A stretch of DNA of 64,000 nt. It comes from Pectinatus sottacetonis. GTDB lineage: Bacteria > Bacillota > Negativicutes > Selenomonadales > Selenomonadaceae. The notes beneath the pieces were generated by a model. It had not been told where the DNA came from. It ran no database searches and worked only from the letters and a program-made list of their open reading frames with translations. Position 1 is the first letter of the stretch. Each line of letters starts with the position of its first letter. The translations under genes were made by a program, and so were the position numbers. The stretch is taken from NCBI RefSeq assembly GCF_015732155.1, contig NZ_WIQK01000001.1, positions 2,490,001 to 2,554,000 of the forward strand, in the 5' to 3' direction. Positions 18,511 to 23,248 of the stretch are shown piece after piece.

Positions 18511-19885
18511 TATGCAAAAAGCAGTTATTTATGCCAGATACAGCAGCGAAAGACAAAACGAGCAATCTATTGAGGGACAGCTACATGAGTGTCAGGAATT
18601 TGCTAAATCTCGCGATATTATGATCATCAGGAATTAGATTGTGTAATTGTCTATAAGACAGATCGTTTTGCCCGTAATCGTTATGACAGTGCCGTTTATA
18701 AGGCACGTTTGAAAAAATGGTATAAAAATATTTTATGCTAAGGAAAATATACCTGACGGACCAGAAGGGATTATTTTAGAATCTATGCTTGAAGGCTTTG
18801 CAGAGTATTATTCTGCCGAATTATCACAGAAAGTGAAGCGTGGCATAAAAGAAAATGTCCGCAAAGGTTTATCTTTCGGTGGCACTTGCCCTTATGGCTA
18901 TAAAATAGTTAATAAAAAATACACAATCAATGAGATACAACGCCCATGTGTTATTAAAATATTTCAAGATTATGCTGCCGGCAAGCGGTTGACTGACATT
19001 ATCGCTGATCTCAATACTGCTCCTGATTATGCAGGTAAAGGCAGCATATGGAATAAGTGTTCGCTGCATCATATGTTTGCCAATAAAAAATATATAGGGA
19101 TATATAATGCTATAATGCGCAAGGATTGAGCATTTTTGATGCGATTCCGCCAATTGTTCAGGCAAAGTTGTTTATAAGGTGCAGCAACGGCAACTGTTAA
19201 ATAAGCATCATCCTGGAACAGGTAAGGCAAAAGTTAATTATTTGTTGTCTGGTAAAATCTTTTGTGGCCTTTGTGATAGTTATATGAATGGGCATAGTGG
19301 TACTAGTAAAACCGGCAAGATATATTATCATTATCATTGCAGAAATAAAGATTGCCGACGAATGCTGCGCAAAGATTATATTGAAAAGTTAGTAGTCGAT
19401 GCAACTACTCAGTATATATTAATTCCTAATAATTTTAATGAAATAGCTAAGCGGTGTATAGCTATTTACAAGGAAGAACAACAGGTTGAAGATAAAACAA
19501 ATAGTTTTGAGCAACAGTTTGCTGCCGTTAAATATAAGATAGATAATGTTATGAAAGCAATAGAAGCAGGTATTATGACCGATACTACAAAGTCACGATT
19601 GACACAGCTTGAAAATGATAAGCAAAATATTGTAAAAGAAATGAAAACCAGCAGATCAATAATAATCTGCCGGAATTATCCGAAGAACATATCATATATA
19701 TGCTAACTTATTTTATAAGCACCGCGCTGATACTAATTTTTACGATAAAATTATTGATGGGTTTATTCATAAAGTTTACGTGTATGATAATTCTATATGT
19801 GTAATATACAATCTCATTGATTCTAGCAAAGATATCACTAAAGCCGATATTGACGCGCTTTATATGAGTTTGTATATTGACTTGA
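18511..19885 (+). pseudogene. Degraded large serine recombinase abutting the tmRNA gene
   Basis: An ATG after AAAGGA begins MQKAVIYARYSSERQNEQSI, the catalytic start of a serine recombinase with its active-site serine. The sequence then lacks a segment and shifts frame near 18,630. It resumes as VIVYKTDRFARNRYDSAVYK, shifts again near 18,730 (LESMLEGFAEYYSAELSQ), breaks near 19,128, and continues with the zinc ribbon CGLCDSYM...CRNKDC. A further break lies near 19,660. The last coherent segment (IIDGFIHKVYVYDNSICVIY) runs to the very 3' end of ssrA, read antisense. At least three frameshifts or deletions make it inactive. It is probably the integrase that brought this island to the tmRNA site. 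Confidence 0.8.
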
Positions 19886-19886
19886 C

Positions 19887-20240
19887 TGGTGGAGACGAGG
19901 AGAATCGAACTCCTGTCCGAAAACATTGCTGCACAAGTTTCTCCGAGCGCATTATGTGTTTATTTATCAGATAATAAAGCTACACAAACAAACCTTCATT
20001 ATCCTATCTCGATAAAATTTCCCAATATTCTCCGAGAATTGAATACAAGGTATCCCACTATTGTCCTCTTTTTGCTTCACGTGGGAAAAGAAACAAAAGA
20101 GGTTAGCATTAAGCTGCTAAAGCGTAATTATCGTTAGCTTTTATATTTAAATAAAAGTAGATTCACCTTACTAACGGGTTGATGACCCCCCGGCTCGCTT
20201 CTCGTACAACATCTGTTCCCGTCGAAACCATTACGTCCCC
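19887..20240 (-). ncRNA. ssrA: Transfer-messenger RNA
   Basis: tmRNA rescues stalled ribosomes and tags the unfinished protein for proteolysis. On the minus strand the 5' end reads GGGGACGTAATGGTTTCGAC and the 3' end has the T-arm-like TCGATTCTCC, CGTCTCC and an encoded CCA. GGGGACG pairs with CGTCTCC to close the acceptor stem. The tag frame at 20,109-20,138 encodes ANDNYALAA followed by TAA; its resume codon is GCT. The length is about 354 nt. The degraded recombinase starts within two bases of its 3' end, which is the usual side for integration at ssrA. Confidence 0.97.
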
Positions 20241-20704: not shown

Positions 20705-21322
20705 TTGACAAGATTAAAAGATGCTGTTGATCATATTGCAAAGGCCGTCATTAAACAGCGTGATTTATTGGACAGATTGGATTCTATTGGCGATAGTGAT
20801 CATGGCACGAATATGGCACGGGGATTTAATGCTGCAATAGAGGCCTTGGATGCTTTAGAGGACGATAGCACAAAAAATGTACTTCATACGATTGGAACAG
20901 CTTTTTCGGAAAATATTGGTGGAGCATCTGGCCCTTTATATGCAACAGCTTTTTTACGTGCTGCATCTGTTTGTGATAAGGATACCACATTCAATATAGA
21001 AAATGTTGAGAAACTCTTAGGAGCAGCTATAGAAGGAATAAAGAAACGCGGACATTCTGATGTGGGTGAAAAAACTATGCTTGATGTGCTGGTTCCTGTA
21101 TATAGATGTTTTACACCAGAACAGGCAAAAGATAAAACCTTATATCAATGTATAGAAGCTGCAGTAAAAGCGGCTAAAAAAGGCATTGACTATACAAAAA
21201 CTATTCCAGCAACAAAGGGACGTGCATCATATATTGGTGAACGTAGTGTGGGACATGAAGATCCTGGTGGGATGTCCTCATTGATAATGGTACGTGAATT
21301 ATTTAATTTCTTAAAATACTGA
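20705..21322 (+). CDS. dhaL: DhaL-type dihydroxyacetone kinase ADP-binding (DAK2) protein
   Basis: This 205-residue protein is the DAK2 nucleotide-binding half of dihydroxyacetone kinase. It keeps the magnesium-binding cluster GDSDHGTNMARGF (near 27-39), a GGASGPLYATAF phosphate loop (near 78-89), GEKTMLDVLVP (near 123) and the RASYIGERSVGHEDPG tail (near 176-191). In PTS-dependent systems DhaL holds ADP and works with DhaK and DhaM, but no dhaK or dhaM is in the window. Either the partners lie elsewhere or it phosphorylates another small substrate. It starts at a TTG behind GGGGGAA. A strong terminator follows. Confidence 0.8.
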   Translation: MTRLKDAVDHIAKAVIKQRDLLDRLDSIGDSDHGTNMARGFNAAIEALDALEDDSTKNVLHTIGTAFSENIGGASGPLYATAFLRAASVCDKDTTFNIENVEKLLGAAIEGIKKRGHSDVGEKTMLDVLVPVYRCFTPEQAKDKTLYQCIEAAVKAAKKGIDYTKTIPATKGRASYIGERSVGHEDPGGMSSLIMVRELFNFLKY

Positions 21323-21323
21323 T

Positions 21324-21361
21324 AATATTTACTATATCTATTTATAGATATAGTAAATATT
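21324..21361 (+). terminator. Hairpin after dhaL
   Basis: A perfect 17-bp inverted repeat with a TTTA loop begins right after the dhaL stop codon. It is AT-rich and followed by a short T run. Confidence 0.65.
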
Positions 21362-21502
21362 ATTTCTGAAAATTGTTAATAATTAATTATTTACTATTGA
21401 AAAAATTGATAATTATTGCTATAATAATATTAGAAAGTACAGATGATATTGATAATTATAATTGTACTTTCTCAGCCATTGTAAATGTGTTATAATAGGG
21501 AC

Positions 21503-21720
21503 GGAATATTATTTATAACATATTTGATAAAATGGTAGTGATCCTTCCGCTTCTAGGTGGCATATAGTGGTGGACGAATGATGACAGGACCGCGGGGCAT
21601 GCAAATTTAACTTGCTGATGGTTTAGTTTCTTATTAAGCAGTTATATTTCTACTTAAAATACTGTATAGGTTAAATAGTGGAAATGTGTCACCATTGGGA
21701 TCATAAAATATTATATGACA
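21503..21720 (+). ncRNA. Candidate structured non-coding RNA, possibly 6S RNA
   Basis: A TATAAT box at 21,491-21,496 precedes an island of mixed-composition, non-coding sequence. The ends pair: AATGGT (21,531-21,536) with ACCATT (21,691-21,696), and TTCCGCT (21,545-21,551) with AGTGGAA (21,677-21,683). These leave an internal loop between the helices and a large open centre. The interior holds ACCGCGGGGCATGC and ACTTAAAATACTG, which recall blocks of 6S RNA. That layout (closing stem, central bubble, about 200 nt) fits 6S, but I cannot confirm the family. No frame on either strand looks coding. Confidence 0.35.
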
Positions 21721-21980
21721 GGGAGTGAGAGAATATAAAAAAATTATATTTATTTATCTCATGGCAAGTTCACTGAAGTGTAATGGTTTTGGAATTACCA
21801 AAGATTATTATATAAAAGAGACACTATAATGTGGATTCTGTTTATGAGATAACAGTCTTTTATATAATGCGCATTATAAATTATGATTTTAGGTTGAATA
21901 ACGAAGTTTTTTATCTTTATAAGTGTGGAATGGAATATACCTTATAGGGTTTATCCAATTTTAACAAAAAGTTGTTTCAT

Positions 21981-22040
21981 ATTTAACTTTTGTAACTAGA
22001 ATTCTCCACTTCTAAAGTGGTGGGGTGAGTATGTCACTTT
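21981..22040. mobile_element. IS200/IS605-type right-end-like hairpin, second copy
   Basis: TTTAACTTTTGTAACTAGAA is followed by the hairpin CTCCACTTCTAAAGTGGTGGGG. It parallels the copy at 16,530-16,588 in order, spacing and several bases. No transposase gene is nearby. The 260 bases before it (21,720-21,980) hold no gene I can recognise. Confidence 0.4.
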
Positions 22041-22170
22041 ATAATTAATGATAATGAAAAGCGCATTAATGTTATAGTCGACTATGTTGTTTTATAAAGT
22101 ATGTATTATCTCGCGAATAATATGTACAGACAAAAAAATGAAGAGGGAATTAGTATTGAATTATAATTAG

Positions 22171-22202
22171 AGCAGCTTGTATTTTATTACAAGCTGCTTT
22201 TT
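22171..22202 (+). terminator. Rho-independent terminator
   Basis: AGCAGCTTGTA and TACAAGCTGCT form an 11-bp stem followed by TTTTT. It has no intact gene in front of it. The 120 bases before it read almost as an open frame (INDNEKRINVIVDYVVL, then one stop), perhaps a gene remnant. Confidence 0.7.
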
Positions 22203-22260
22203 ATGTATCATTAGCAAAATATAATGTAGTGATAAGGATAGTAAATATTTAAAGGTTTCA

Positions 22261-22307
22261 AAATAGTATAGCGTACTGATTTTTAAAATCAGTACGCTAT
22301 ACTATTT
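22261..22307. terminator. Long perfect hairpin downstream of mdh
   Basis: A perfect 23-bp inverted repeat (22,261-22,283 with 22,285-22,307) with a single-base centre ends 8 bases before the mdh stop. It is flanked by A/T runs and would stop transcription from either side. Confidence 0.85.
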
Positions 22308-22315
22308 AAAAATTA

Positions 22316-23248
22316 TTATTTTAAAGCTTCTTTTAACTTAGCATTTGTATCTTTTGCACTGTCAACACTTTTCTGGAACATTTCTTTTTCTTTAGCATCA
22401 AGTGGAAGTTCAAGGATTTTTTCAATACCGTTTTTACCAAGAACTACAGGAACACCAGCACAAACATCTTTTTCGCCATATTCTCCATCTAATAAAGCAA
22501 TGCAGGATAATGTTTTACCAGTGTTTTTAGCAATTGCTTCAGCCATAGTAGCAGCTGTAGTACCAGGAGCATACCATGCAGAAGTACCGAGCAGTTTAGT
22601 CAAAGTGCCACCGCCTACCTGAGTAGCATGTTCTATTTCAGTTAATTTATCTGCGGAAAGATATTCACTGACAGGAACACCTTTGTAAGTAGCCATGCGT
22701 GTAAGAGGAACCATTAAATCTCCATGTGCACCGATTACCATAGCATCAATATCACCCACAGGGCAGCCAATTGCTTGTGCTAAGTAATATTCAAAACGGC
22801 TTCCATCTAAAAGACCGCTCATACCTATTACACGTTCACGTGGTAATCCACTATCTTTTAATGCAAGATATGTAAGGGTATCAACAGGATTAGAAATAAT
22901 GAGGAATGTAGCATTAGGTGAGTGCTTTAAGGCTTCATCCATAACAGACTTTACGATTTTGGAATTTACACCAATAAGATCAGTACGACTCATACCTGGT
23001 TTACGAGGCATACCCGAAGTTATAATTACAATATCAGAATTTTCAGTCTTAGAATAATCATTTGTAATACCAGTAATTTTTGTATCAATATGCATCATGT
23101 TAACAGTCTGCATCATGTCCATTGCTTTACCTTCAGCAACGCCATCTTTAATATCAAGCAATACTACTTCATCAGCGAAATTTTTTAAAGCTAGGACATT
23201 TGCAGCGGTAGCGCCTACGTTACCAGCACCAATTACAGAAATTTTCAT
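22316..23248 (-). CDS. mdh: Malate dehydrogenase (LDH-like type)
   Basis: This 310-residue NAD-dependent 2-hydroxyacid dehydrogenase interconverts malate and oxaloacetate. It has the Rossmann start ISVIGAGNVGAT (residues 3-14) and the aspartate selecting NAD (VVLLDI, near 33). The substrate loop reads TSGMPRKPGMSR: the arginine at this position (PRKPG) marks malate specificity, where lactate dehydrogenases have glutamine. The catalytic histidine is in IGAHGD (near 175) and the substrate arginine in MSRTDL. It is a single-gene unit with a strong terminator. In Negativicutes it would serve the reductive branch to fumarate, succinate and propionate. Confidence 0.92.
   Translation of the reverse strand: MKISVIGAGNVGATAANVLALKNFADEVVLLDIKDGVAEGKAMDMMQTVNMMHIDTKITGITNDYSKTENSDIVIITSGMPRKPGMSRTDLIGVNSKIVKSVMDEALKHSPNATFLIISNPVDTLTYLALKDSGLPRERVIGMSGLLDGSRFEYYLAQAIGCPVGDIDAMVIGAHGDLMVPLTRMATYKGVPVSEYLSADKLTEIEHATQVGGGTLTKLLGTSAWYAPGTTAATMAEAIAKNTGKTLSCIALLDGEYGEKDVCAGVPVVLGKNGIEKILELPLDAKEKEMFQKSVDSAKDTNAKLKEALK

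Follow-up and report, generated by a model that had tools for sequence, protein, structure and literature searches.

A candidate large structured RNA shared within the Selenomonadaceae, encoded between dhaL and mdh of Pectinatus sottacetonis

The region between dhaL and mdh

We analyzed a stretch of 64,000 nucleotides (referred to here as the window) from Pectinatus sottacetonis, whose genus belongs to the family Selenomonadaceae and the class Negativicutes. In this window, dhaL ends at position 21322 and mdh, encoded on the minus strand, ends at 22316; NCBIfam models identify the two genes as DhaL (TIGR02365) and malate dehydrogenase (NF004863 and TIGR01763). The intervening ~1 kb holds no open reading frame of at least 60 amino acids, in agreement with the initial annotation, which had described the region as devoid of coding frames. 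No Rfam family matches the gap at gathering score and none matches it meaningfully at E 10, and the fallback offered by that annotation, an unassigned RNA, proved to be correct. There is a putative RNA gene between dhaL and mdh, with limits other than those first proposed (Table 1).

The initial annotation had placed a structured RNA resembling 6S RNA at 21503-21720, behind a TATAAT box. The box is present at 21491-21496 and the ends of the segment can indeed pair (GUGAUCC with GGAUCAU), but the segment alone is folded no better than its dinucleotide shuffles (z -0.65, with 43 of 200 shuffles equally good), and the gene begins about 70 nt earlier and stops about 480 nt later. The whole stretch 21432-22202 folds better than shuffles (z -3.13, none of 20 as good). 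Its promoter consists of a TTGAAA box at 21397-21402 and a conserved -10 box at 21420-21425, 71 nt upstream of the TATAAT at 21491, and the same promoter type is found at the equivalent position in genomes G003, G001, G004, G010, and G038.

Table 1. Features of the RNA gene in the window
Feature	Position	Strand	Basis
Promoter, TTGAAA, 17 nt, TATAAT	21397..21425	+	11 of 12 consensus matches; start expected at about 21432
Large structured RNA gene (putative), ~770 nt	21432..22202	+	Fold of the whole stretch; 3' domain matched by models R1 and R2 and by the Pectinatus-free HMM
5' hairpin, AGAAAGUACA with UGUACUUUCU	21432..21472	+	z -3.73
Species-specific expansion: hairpin 21481-21538, then a long arm closed by 21540-21546 with 21697-21703	21481..21703	+	Mostly gapped against G003, G001, and G004
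Core arm: 21767-21773 with 21831-21837, inside it 21778-21781 with 21821-21824	21767..21837	+	Pairs by eye
3' hairpin, 11 pairs, loop CUCGCGA with palindrome UCGCGA (22111-22116)	22099..22127	+	Covaries over four Pectinatus sequences
Conserved single-stranded stretch GACAA...GAAGAGGGA	22129..22148	+	Among the most conserved columns of alignments A5 and A9
Ultrashort frame TTG AAT TAT AAT TAG (MNYN, four codons), stop at terminator stem	22156..22170	+	Counterpart frame in 52 of 53 homologs
Intrinsic terminator	22169..22202	+	Only terminator-like site in 21300-22330; z -7.09

At the position of the 5' hairpin, hairpins of differing letters are found in G003, G001, and G004, as judged by eye and from folds. 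The core arm is the counterpart of helices 11 and 12 of alignment A8, which covary there; against it, the 77-nt stretch folded alone favors another structure. A Shine-Dalgarno-like purine block lies at 22142-22148, within the conserved single-stranded stretch.

Conservation within the gene is lowest in the segment first annotated, most of which the MAFFT alignment treats as inserted into the window sequence. An alternative reading makes 21503-21720 a small RNA or mobile insert in its own right, about 220 nt long, nested in the larger gene and transcribed from a promoter at 21491. Consistent with such an insert, the segment is mostly missing from the other Pectinatus genomes (a blastn search of 21470-21740 against four other genomes of the genus gave nothing convincing, best E 0.029), 37 nt of it recur at 84% identity (E 3.3e-4) elsewhere in the genome, where they lie downstream of a parB gene and again follow a TATAAT, and the hairpin 21481-21538, which encloses the TATAAT of 21491-21496, has 14 pairs and a z of -3.06. 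However, the 218 nt fold at chance level, the part in common is only about 37 nt long, and the pattern is no commoner in relatives than a reversed control. We therefore regard a separate insert as unlikely, and take the segment as an expansion of the larger gene.

Two further features of the expansions are recorded here. A two-helix module (GUGAUYC, UUCCGC, GUGGRAA, and GGAUYAU, with GUUAAAUAGUGGRAAUGUGU; helices by eye) occurs at window positions 21540-21703 and again downstream of a parB/noc gene of the same genome (G000:C1, ~1243905-1243975; L052, minus strand, ~1975-1920), both copies preceded at a distance of ~160-175 nt by a TATAAT. The sequence ACTAGAATTCTCCACTTCTAAAGTGGTGGGGTGAG, at about 21998-22030, falls in another expansion of the RNA gene specific to the species and resembles the right end of an IS200/IS605 element.

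Homologs in Pectinatus and other genera

In P. frisingensis (G003) and P. brassicae (G001), the order dhaL-RNA-mdh is maintained; in a further Pectinatus genome (G004) the RNA follows dhaL and faces speD, and in another (G002) its 3' end lies at a contig edge, with neighbors of the same kind. Local alignment of the four full-length Pectinatus RNAs gave scores above those of all 200 shuffles for all six pairs. A stretch of like layout follows dhaL in two genomes of genus g7, which we take to be Megamonas; plain similarity between Pectinatus and g7 is at or little above chance: in eight pairwise comparisons, between 3 and 116 of 200 shuffles scored equally well.

A covariance model of the 3' domains of four Pectinatus RNAs, the window among them (R1), matched 45 of the 189 genomes of the family at E 0.5, the weakest of these matches being partly due to chance. 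The best matches outside Pectinatus had E values of 6.6e-8 (G018) and 1.6e-6 (G026). The g7 loci were not lifted over noise by R1 (E 0.015 and 0.051, against chance matches at 0.012 and 0.014). Among the matches listed, the better loci that we read have a common order of parts over 500-700 nt: promoter, 5' domain, GAAAGGATGTG block, core arms, 3' hairpin, GACAA...AATA, purine block, and terminator.

A second model (R2), built from 21 sequences of ten genera, was run across 380 genomes of the class and matched 117 of them at E 0.02. At E 1e-6 or better it found 56 genomes, all from the window's own family and representing 15 genera; ten of these are the genera of the model, and the other five (g4, g8, g14, g22, and g30) are absent from it. 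Many of the 189 genomes of the family sample are without the RNA at this level, e.g., in g21 and g12. The locus in G046 (L215) matched R2 at E 9.2e-20. Loci L214, L218, and L219 were set aside as chance (R1, 1.2e-3 to 5.2e-3; partial match to R2, 1.6e-4 to 1.2e-3). Outside the family, the best match had E 2.0e-5, and the two that we inspected (G374 and G341) were ends of coding genes followed by a terminator; we claim no homolog there. A further model, R3, did not recognize Pectinatus or g7.

Both R1 and R2 include the window sequence; a check free of circularity comes from HMMs that exclude the genus tested. When Pectinatus was left out, an HMM of the 3' domain located four of the five Pectinatus loci, all at the correct place (L123, E 1e-11; L128, 1e-10; L125, 2.9e-6; the window at 22094-22155, 5.5e-4), and missed that of P. 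brassicae (L124, E 0.14), which carries an insertion. An HMM built without g7 recovered both g7 loci (2.9e-5 and 0.0096), and one built without either genus reached 0.0052 for G010, with G038 absent from its matches at E 10.

In total, we analyzed 53 loci from 18 genera of the one family, made up of 35 loci (window included) and 18 added ones, with two copies from genome G226. The majority have the common promoter type, core, and terminator with differing neighbors, and the promoter was recognized by pattern in 31 of the 34 homologs of the first set and in 14 of the 18 added. These features suggest, with somewhat better than even confidence on our part, a free-standing gene for a large structured Selenomonadaceae RNA of ~0.5-0.8 kb, equipped with a promoter of the sigma-70 type and a terminator of its own.

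Two variants of the gene stand out. The two copies in G226 (C1:226498 and C21:17048) are very similar, lie on different contigs, and have similar upstream flanks, reflecting duplication or mixed strains, and no other searched genome has a second match below 1e-6. In the g8 genomes (L288-L291 and L294), the RNA is shorter on its 5' side.

Covariation and the 3' end of the RNA

RNAalifold applied to 32 sequences of all genera (three near-duplicates, G222, G224, and G050, having been removed) recovered nothing beyond the terminator and four 3' hairpin pairs, and covariation was therefore counted on closer sets. Alignment A8 comprises 15 of the 53 homologs, from two genera, with a mean column identity of 74%. 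RNAalifold predicts 105 pairs for it, of which 34 are changed on both sides, compared with 21.3 in shuffles (none of 500 as good); helix 1, which accounts for 4 of the 105, belongs to the promoter part of the alignment and is to be disregarded. Cells changed on both sides number 115 versus 42.8 in shuffles (again none of 500), and 96.0% of the paired cells can pair versus 90.0% in shuffles and 36-43% with the partners slid. For the 3' domain (hairpin plus terminator) compared over four Pectinatus species, both partners have changed in 8 of 26 pairs, a result that 1 of 500 shuffles equaled. Compensatory changes in relatives, which the initial annotation had suggested as a check, are thus found, for the larger gene. 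The genome of P. brassicae (G001) was excluded from A5 and A9 because of its insertion.

At the 3' hairpin, the apical loop together with its closing pair holds a perfect 6-nt palindrome in 43 of the 53 sequences, from 14 of the 18 genera, whereas a random 10-nt window of these RNAs contains such a palindrome in 9.7% of cases. The palindromes are CUCGAG, CUUAAG, UCGCGA, and, once, CACGUG, i.e., the letters change between lineages and the self-complementarity is retained. By this test the palindrome is missing from the other 10 sequences, including four of the five g8 genomes and the window, where the loop letters do hold UCGCGA but a pair forms across the hexamer in the fold of lowest energy. 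A general excess of palindromes was seen in some genomes only, and the 3' hairpin loop alone stands. According to the part of PMC12286853 that we consulted, lineage-switching symmetric palindromes have been argued to be kissing loops in L9.3 of OLE and L21a of GOLLD. By analogy, two copies of the RNA might join via the self-complementary hexamer of the 3' hairpin loop, as copies of OLE and GOLLD do; we consider dimerization through this hexamer plausible, although somewhat short of an even case.

Next to the start of the terminator stem, 52 of the 53 sequences carry a frame of 4-8 codons that begins with ATG, TTG, or GTG and has a stop ending at most 9 nt from the terminator stem. Summed as genus means, this amounts to 17.5 of 18, versus 4.0 expected from shuffled linkers; an ATG with exactly five codons is found in 42 of 53 (11.8 of 18, versus 0.4 expected). 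The null distribution was generated by single-letter shuffles of the linker, 400 for each sequence. All three stop codons occur, with TAA and TGA both found in genus g3, and the peptides are mostly dissimilar (MVINK, MNIHK, MVYTV, MSITT, MFVAI, MNYC, and others). The purine block 5' of the frame is among the most conserved columns of A9; in g16 it lies about 12 nt before the ATG, farther than usual. All five g8 genomes retain the five-codon frame, the frame of the window is atypical in its TTG start and four codons, and G020 has none. A second frame, GTG nnn nnn TAT TGA behind GAAAGGATGTG, was by eye not kept in several genera and was taken as structure.

Given that the length and place of the frame are kept and the peptide is not, it would be the visit of the ribosome, rather than the peptide, that is selected. 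A ribosome would start at the mini-frame, read about five codons, and halt with its leading edge on the terminator stem. We judge such a visit, ending against the stem, to be an evenly balanced proposition. The alternative that the gene is a small mRNA with a pentapeptide as its product accounts for the conserved start, length, and stop, but the peptide sequence is not conserved and six hundred structured bases would be superfluous for that function, making this alternative quite improbable.

Mode of action and relation to known RNAs

The neighbors of the RNA vary: dhaL paired with mdh, with speD, or with another gene; yqeB paired with a radical SAM gene; selD; and others. In several g16 and g10 loci the RNA is flanked on one side by yqeB, which is divergent, and on the other by a radical SAM gene (TIGR04100 or TIGR04038 kind), which is convergent; the RNA of G018 lies beside selD, and those of G027 and G051 lie between other genes. 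Given these several settings and the lack of a conserved downstream gene, the RNA most likely acts in trans, as far as can be predicted from gene order.

This bears on the idea of a cis-acting leader or attenuator, in which the mini-frame would control read-through of the terminator. A short frame directly 5' of a terminator is the layout of an attenuator, and in G142 the next gene (245 amino acids; L249, 4216-4953) lies on the same strand, 74 nt past the RNA. Against it, the gene that follows the RNA is convergent: mdh in the window, in G003, and in G001, speD in G004, and likewise in seven of nine further loci (L244 being ambiguous). No downstream gene is conserved, so that we give attenuation only a slim chance. 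Slimmer still is the chance that the RNA is a 3' untranslated region or processed part of the dhaL mRNA: it does follow dhaL in four of five Pectinatus genomes and in the two g7 genomes, but it has its own conserved promoter, and among the 24 loci listed from other genera most have a long frame within about 200 nt after dhaL, the RNA lying elsewhere.

Like the RNA predicted at this locus, 6S RNA is a structured RNA with a closing stem that is transcribed on its own. The reading of the locus as 6S RNA, binding RNA polymerase in stationary phase, as the TATAAT box, paired ends, and interior loop of the segment had suggested, can be dismissed with near certainty, since the 6S model (RF00013), whose use the initial annotation had advised, has no match in the whole window at gathering score or in 21323-22320 at E 10, its sole match in the genome at E 10 or better lies elsewhere and above the cut-off of 46.4 bits (C1:1824124-1824306, ~183 nt, 59.1 bits), and the homologs, at 500-800 nt, are built differently.

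Other identities were likewise rejected. The best match to RNase P RNA (RF00011) lies elsewhere, at C1:2182857-2183195 (E 1.2e-16; 63.1 bits, below the cut-off of 97), and the genome's copies of tmRNA and SRP RNA lie elsewhere in the window. A terminus or dif site was sought with a 28-base dif consensus, which had no match in the window. As side observations, RNase P RNA reaches ~58-63 bits with the type B model, under the same cut-off, in this and five other genomes, in which it is probably of type A or of an unusual form. Two serine recombinase fragments (18785-19706; weak CcrA and XisF matches) adjoin the 3' end of the tmRNA gene (19887-20240, minus strand), probably the remnant of an element inserted at that gene, and in P. 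brassicae a THF riboswitch and the tmRNA gene lie upstream of the corresponding dhaL (L124, 355-454 and 3343-3695).

Overall, this is probably a new, large RNA, predicted to be dimeric and to be visited by ribosomes at its 3' end. Our working picture, which we offer tentatively, is that of a dimeric RNA scaffold that would be tethered to ribosomes or have its 3' end guarded by them. More speculative again is the notion of an RNA class that forms a kissing-loop dimer, whose 3' frame of fixed length and free sequence would park a ribosome at the terminator stem, and which would bridge or count ribosomes. To our knowledge, bacterial RNA classes of more than 500 nt are few and their roles mostly open. 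The RNA described here would add a chromosomal gene that is spread over many genera of a family with members from the rumen, the gut, and breweries; of the genomes searched, just one has a second strong copy. Two questions can be tested now: whether RNA dimers can be predicted from loop palindromes that switch with lineage, and why a frame with a constant length and free sequence persists at the end of a structured RNA.

The dual-function regulatory RNAs RNAIII and SgrS are also structured RNAs that hold a frame; the frame here differs in having about five codons and no conserved peptide and in lying at the terminator. OLE, ROOL, and GOLLD have Rfam models, and these gave no match to the window stretch at E 10, to six tight loci at E 5, or to seven loci of other genera at E 1. 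Structured RNA leaders from Negativicutes, the ldh2 and gltD motifs, are described in the part of PMC8632094 consulted; these lead the ldh2 and gltD genes, whereas the RNA of this locus has no fixed downstream gene. In the portions of the literature searched, including PMC8632094, PMC8040213, PMC11109978, and PMC6429828, we found no large Selenomonadaceae RNA, and novelty is claimed within this scope only.

ROOL and GOLLD, both large and ornate, assemble into homo-oligomers by means of kissing loops (PMC12286853, as far as consulted). The RNA of this locus differs from them in that its homolog from G137 had no match in phage or plasmid records and the window stretch had none in phages; one exact pattern had no match in IMG/VR. 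It resembles them in being a large ornate RNA with a kissing-loop candidate, the oligomer here being predicted from sequence, and it has the large size and many covarying helices of such homo-oligomeric RNAs (34/105 pairs over 15 sequences). OLE RNA, of ~600 nt (PMC9723947, consulted in part), is likewise a large, trans-acting, richly structured RNA of Bacillota, with symmetric loop palindromes that switch between lineages (same part of PMC12286853). According to the part of PMC11332333 consulted, OLE is missing from the class Negativicutes, to which Pectinatus belongs; if our reading is true, a ribosome-bridging or ribosome-counting RNA dimer would be present in a class reported to lack OLE.
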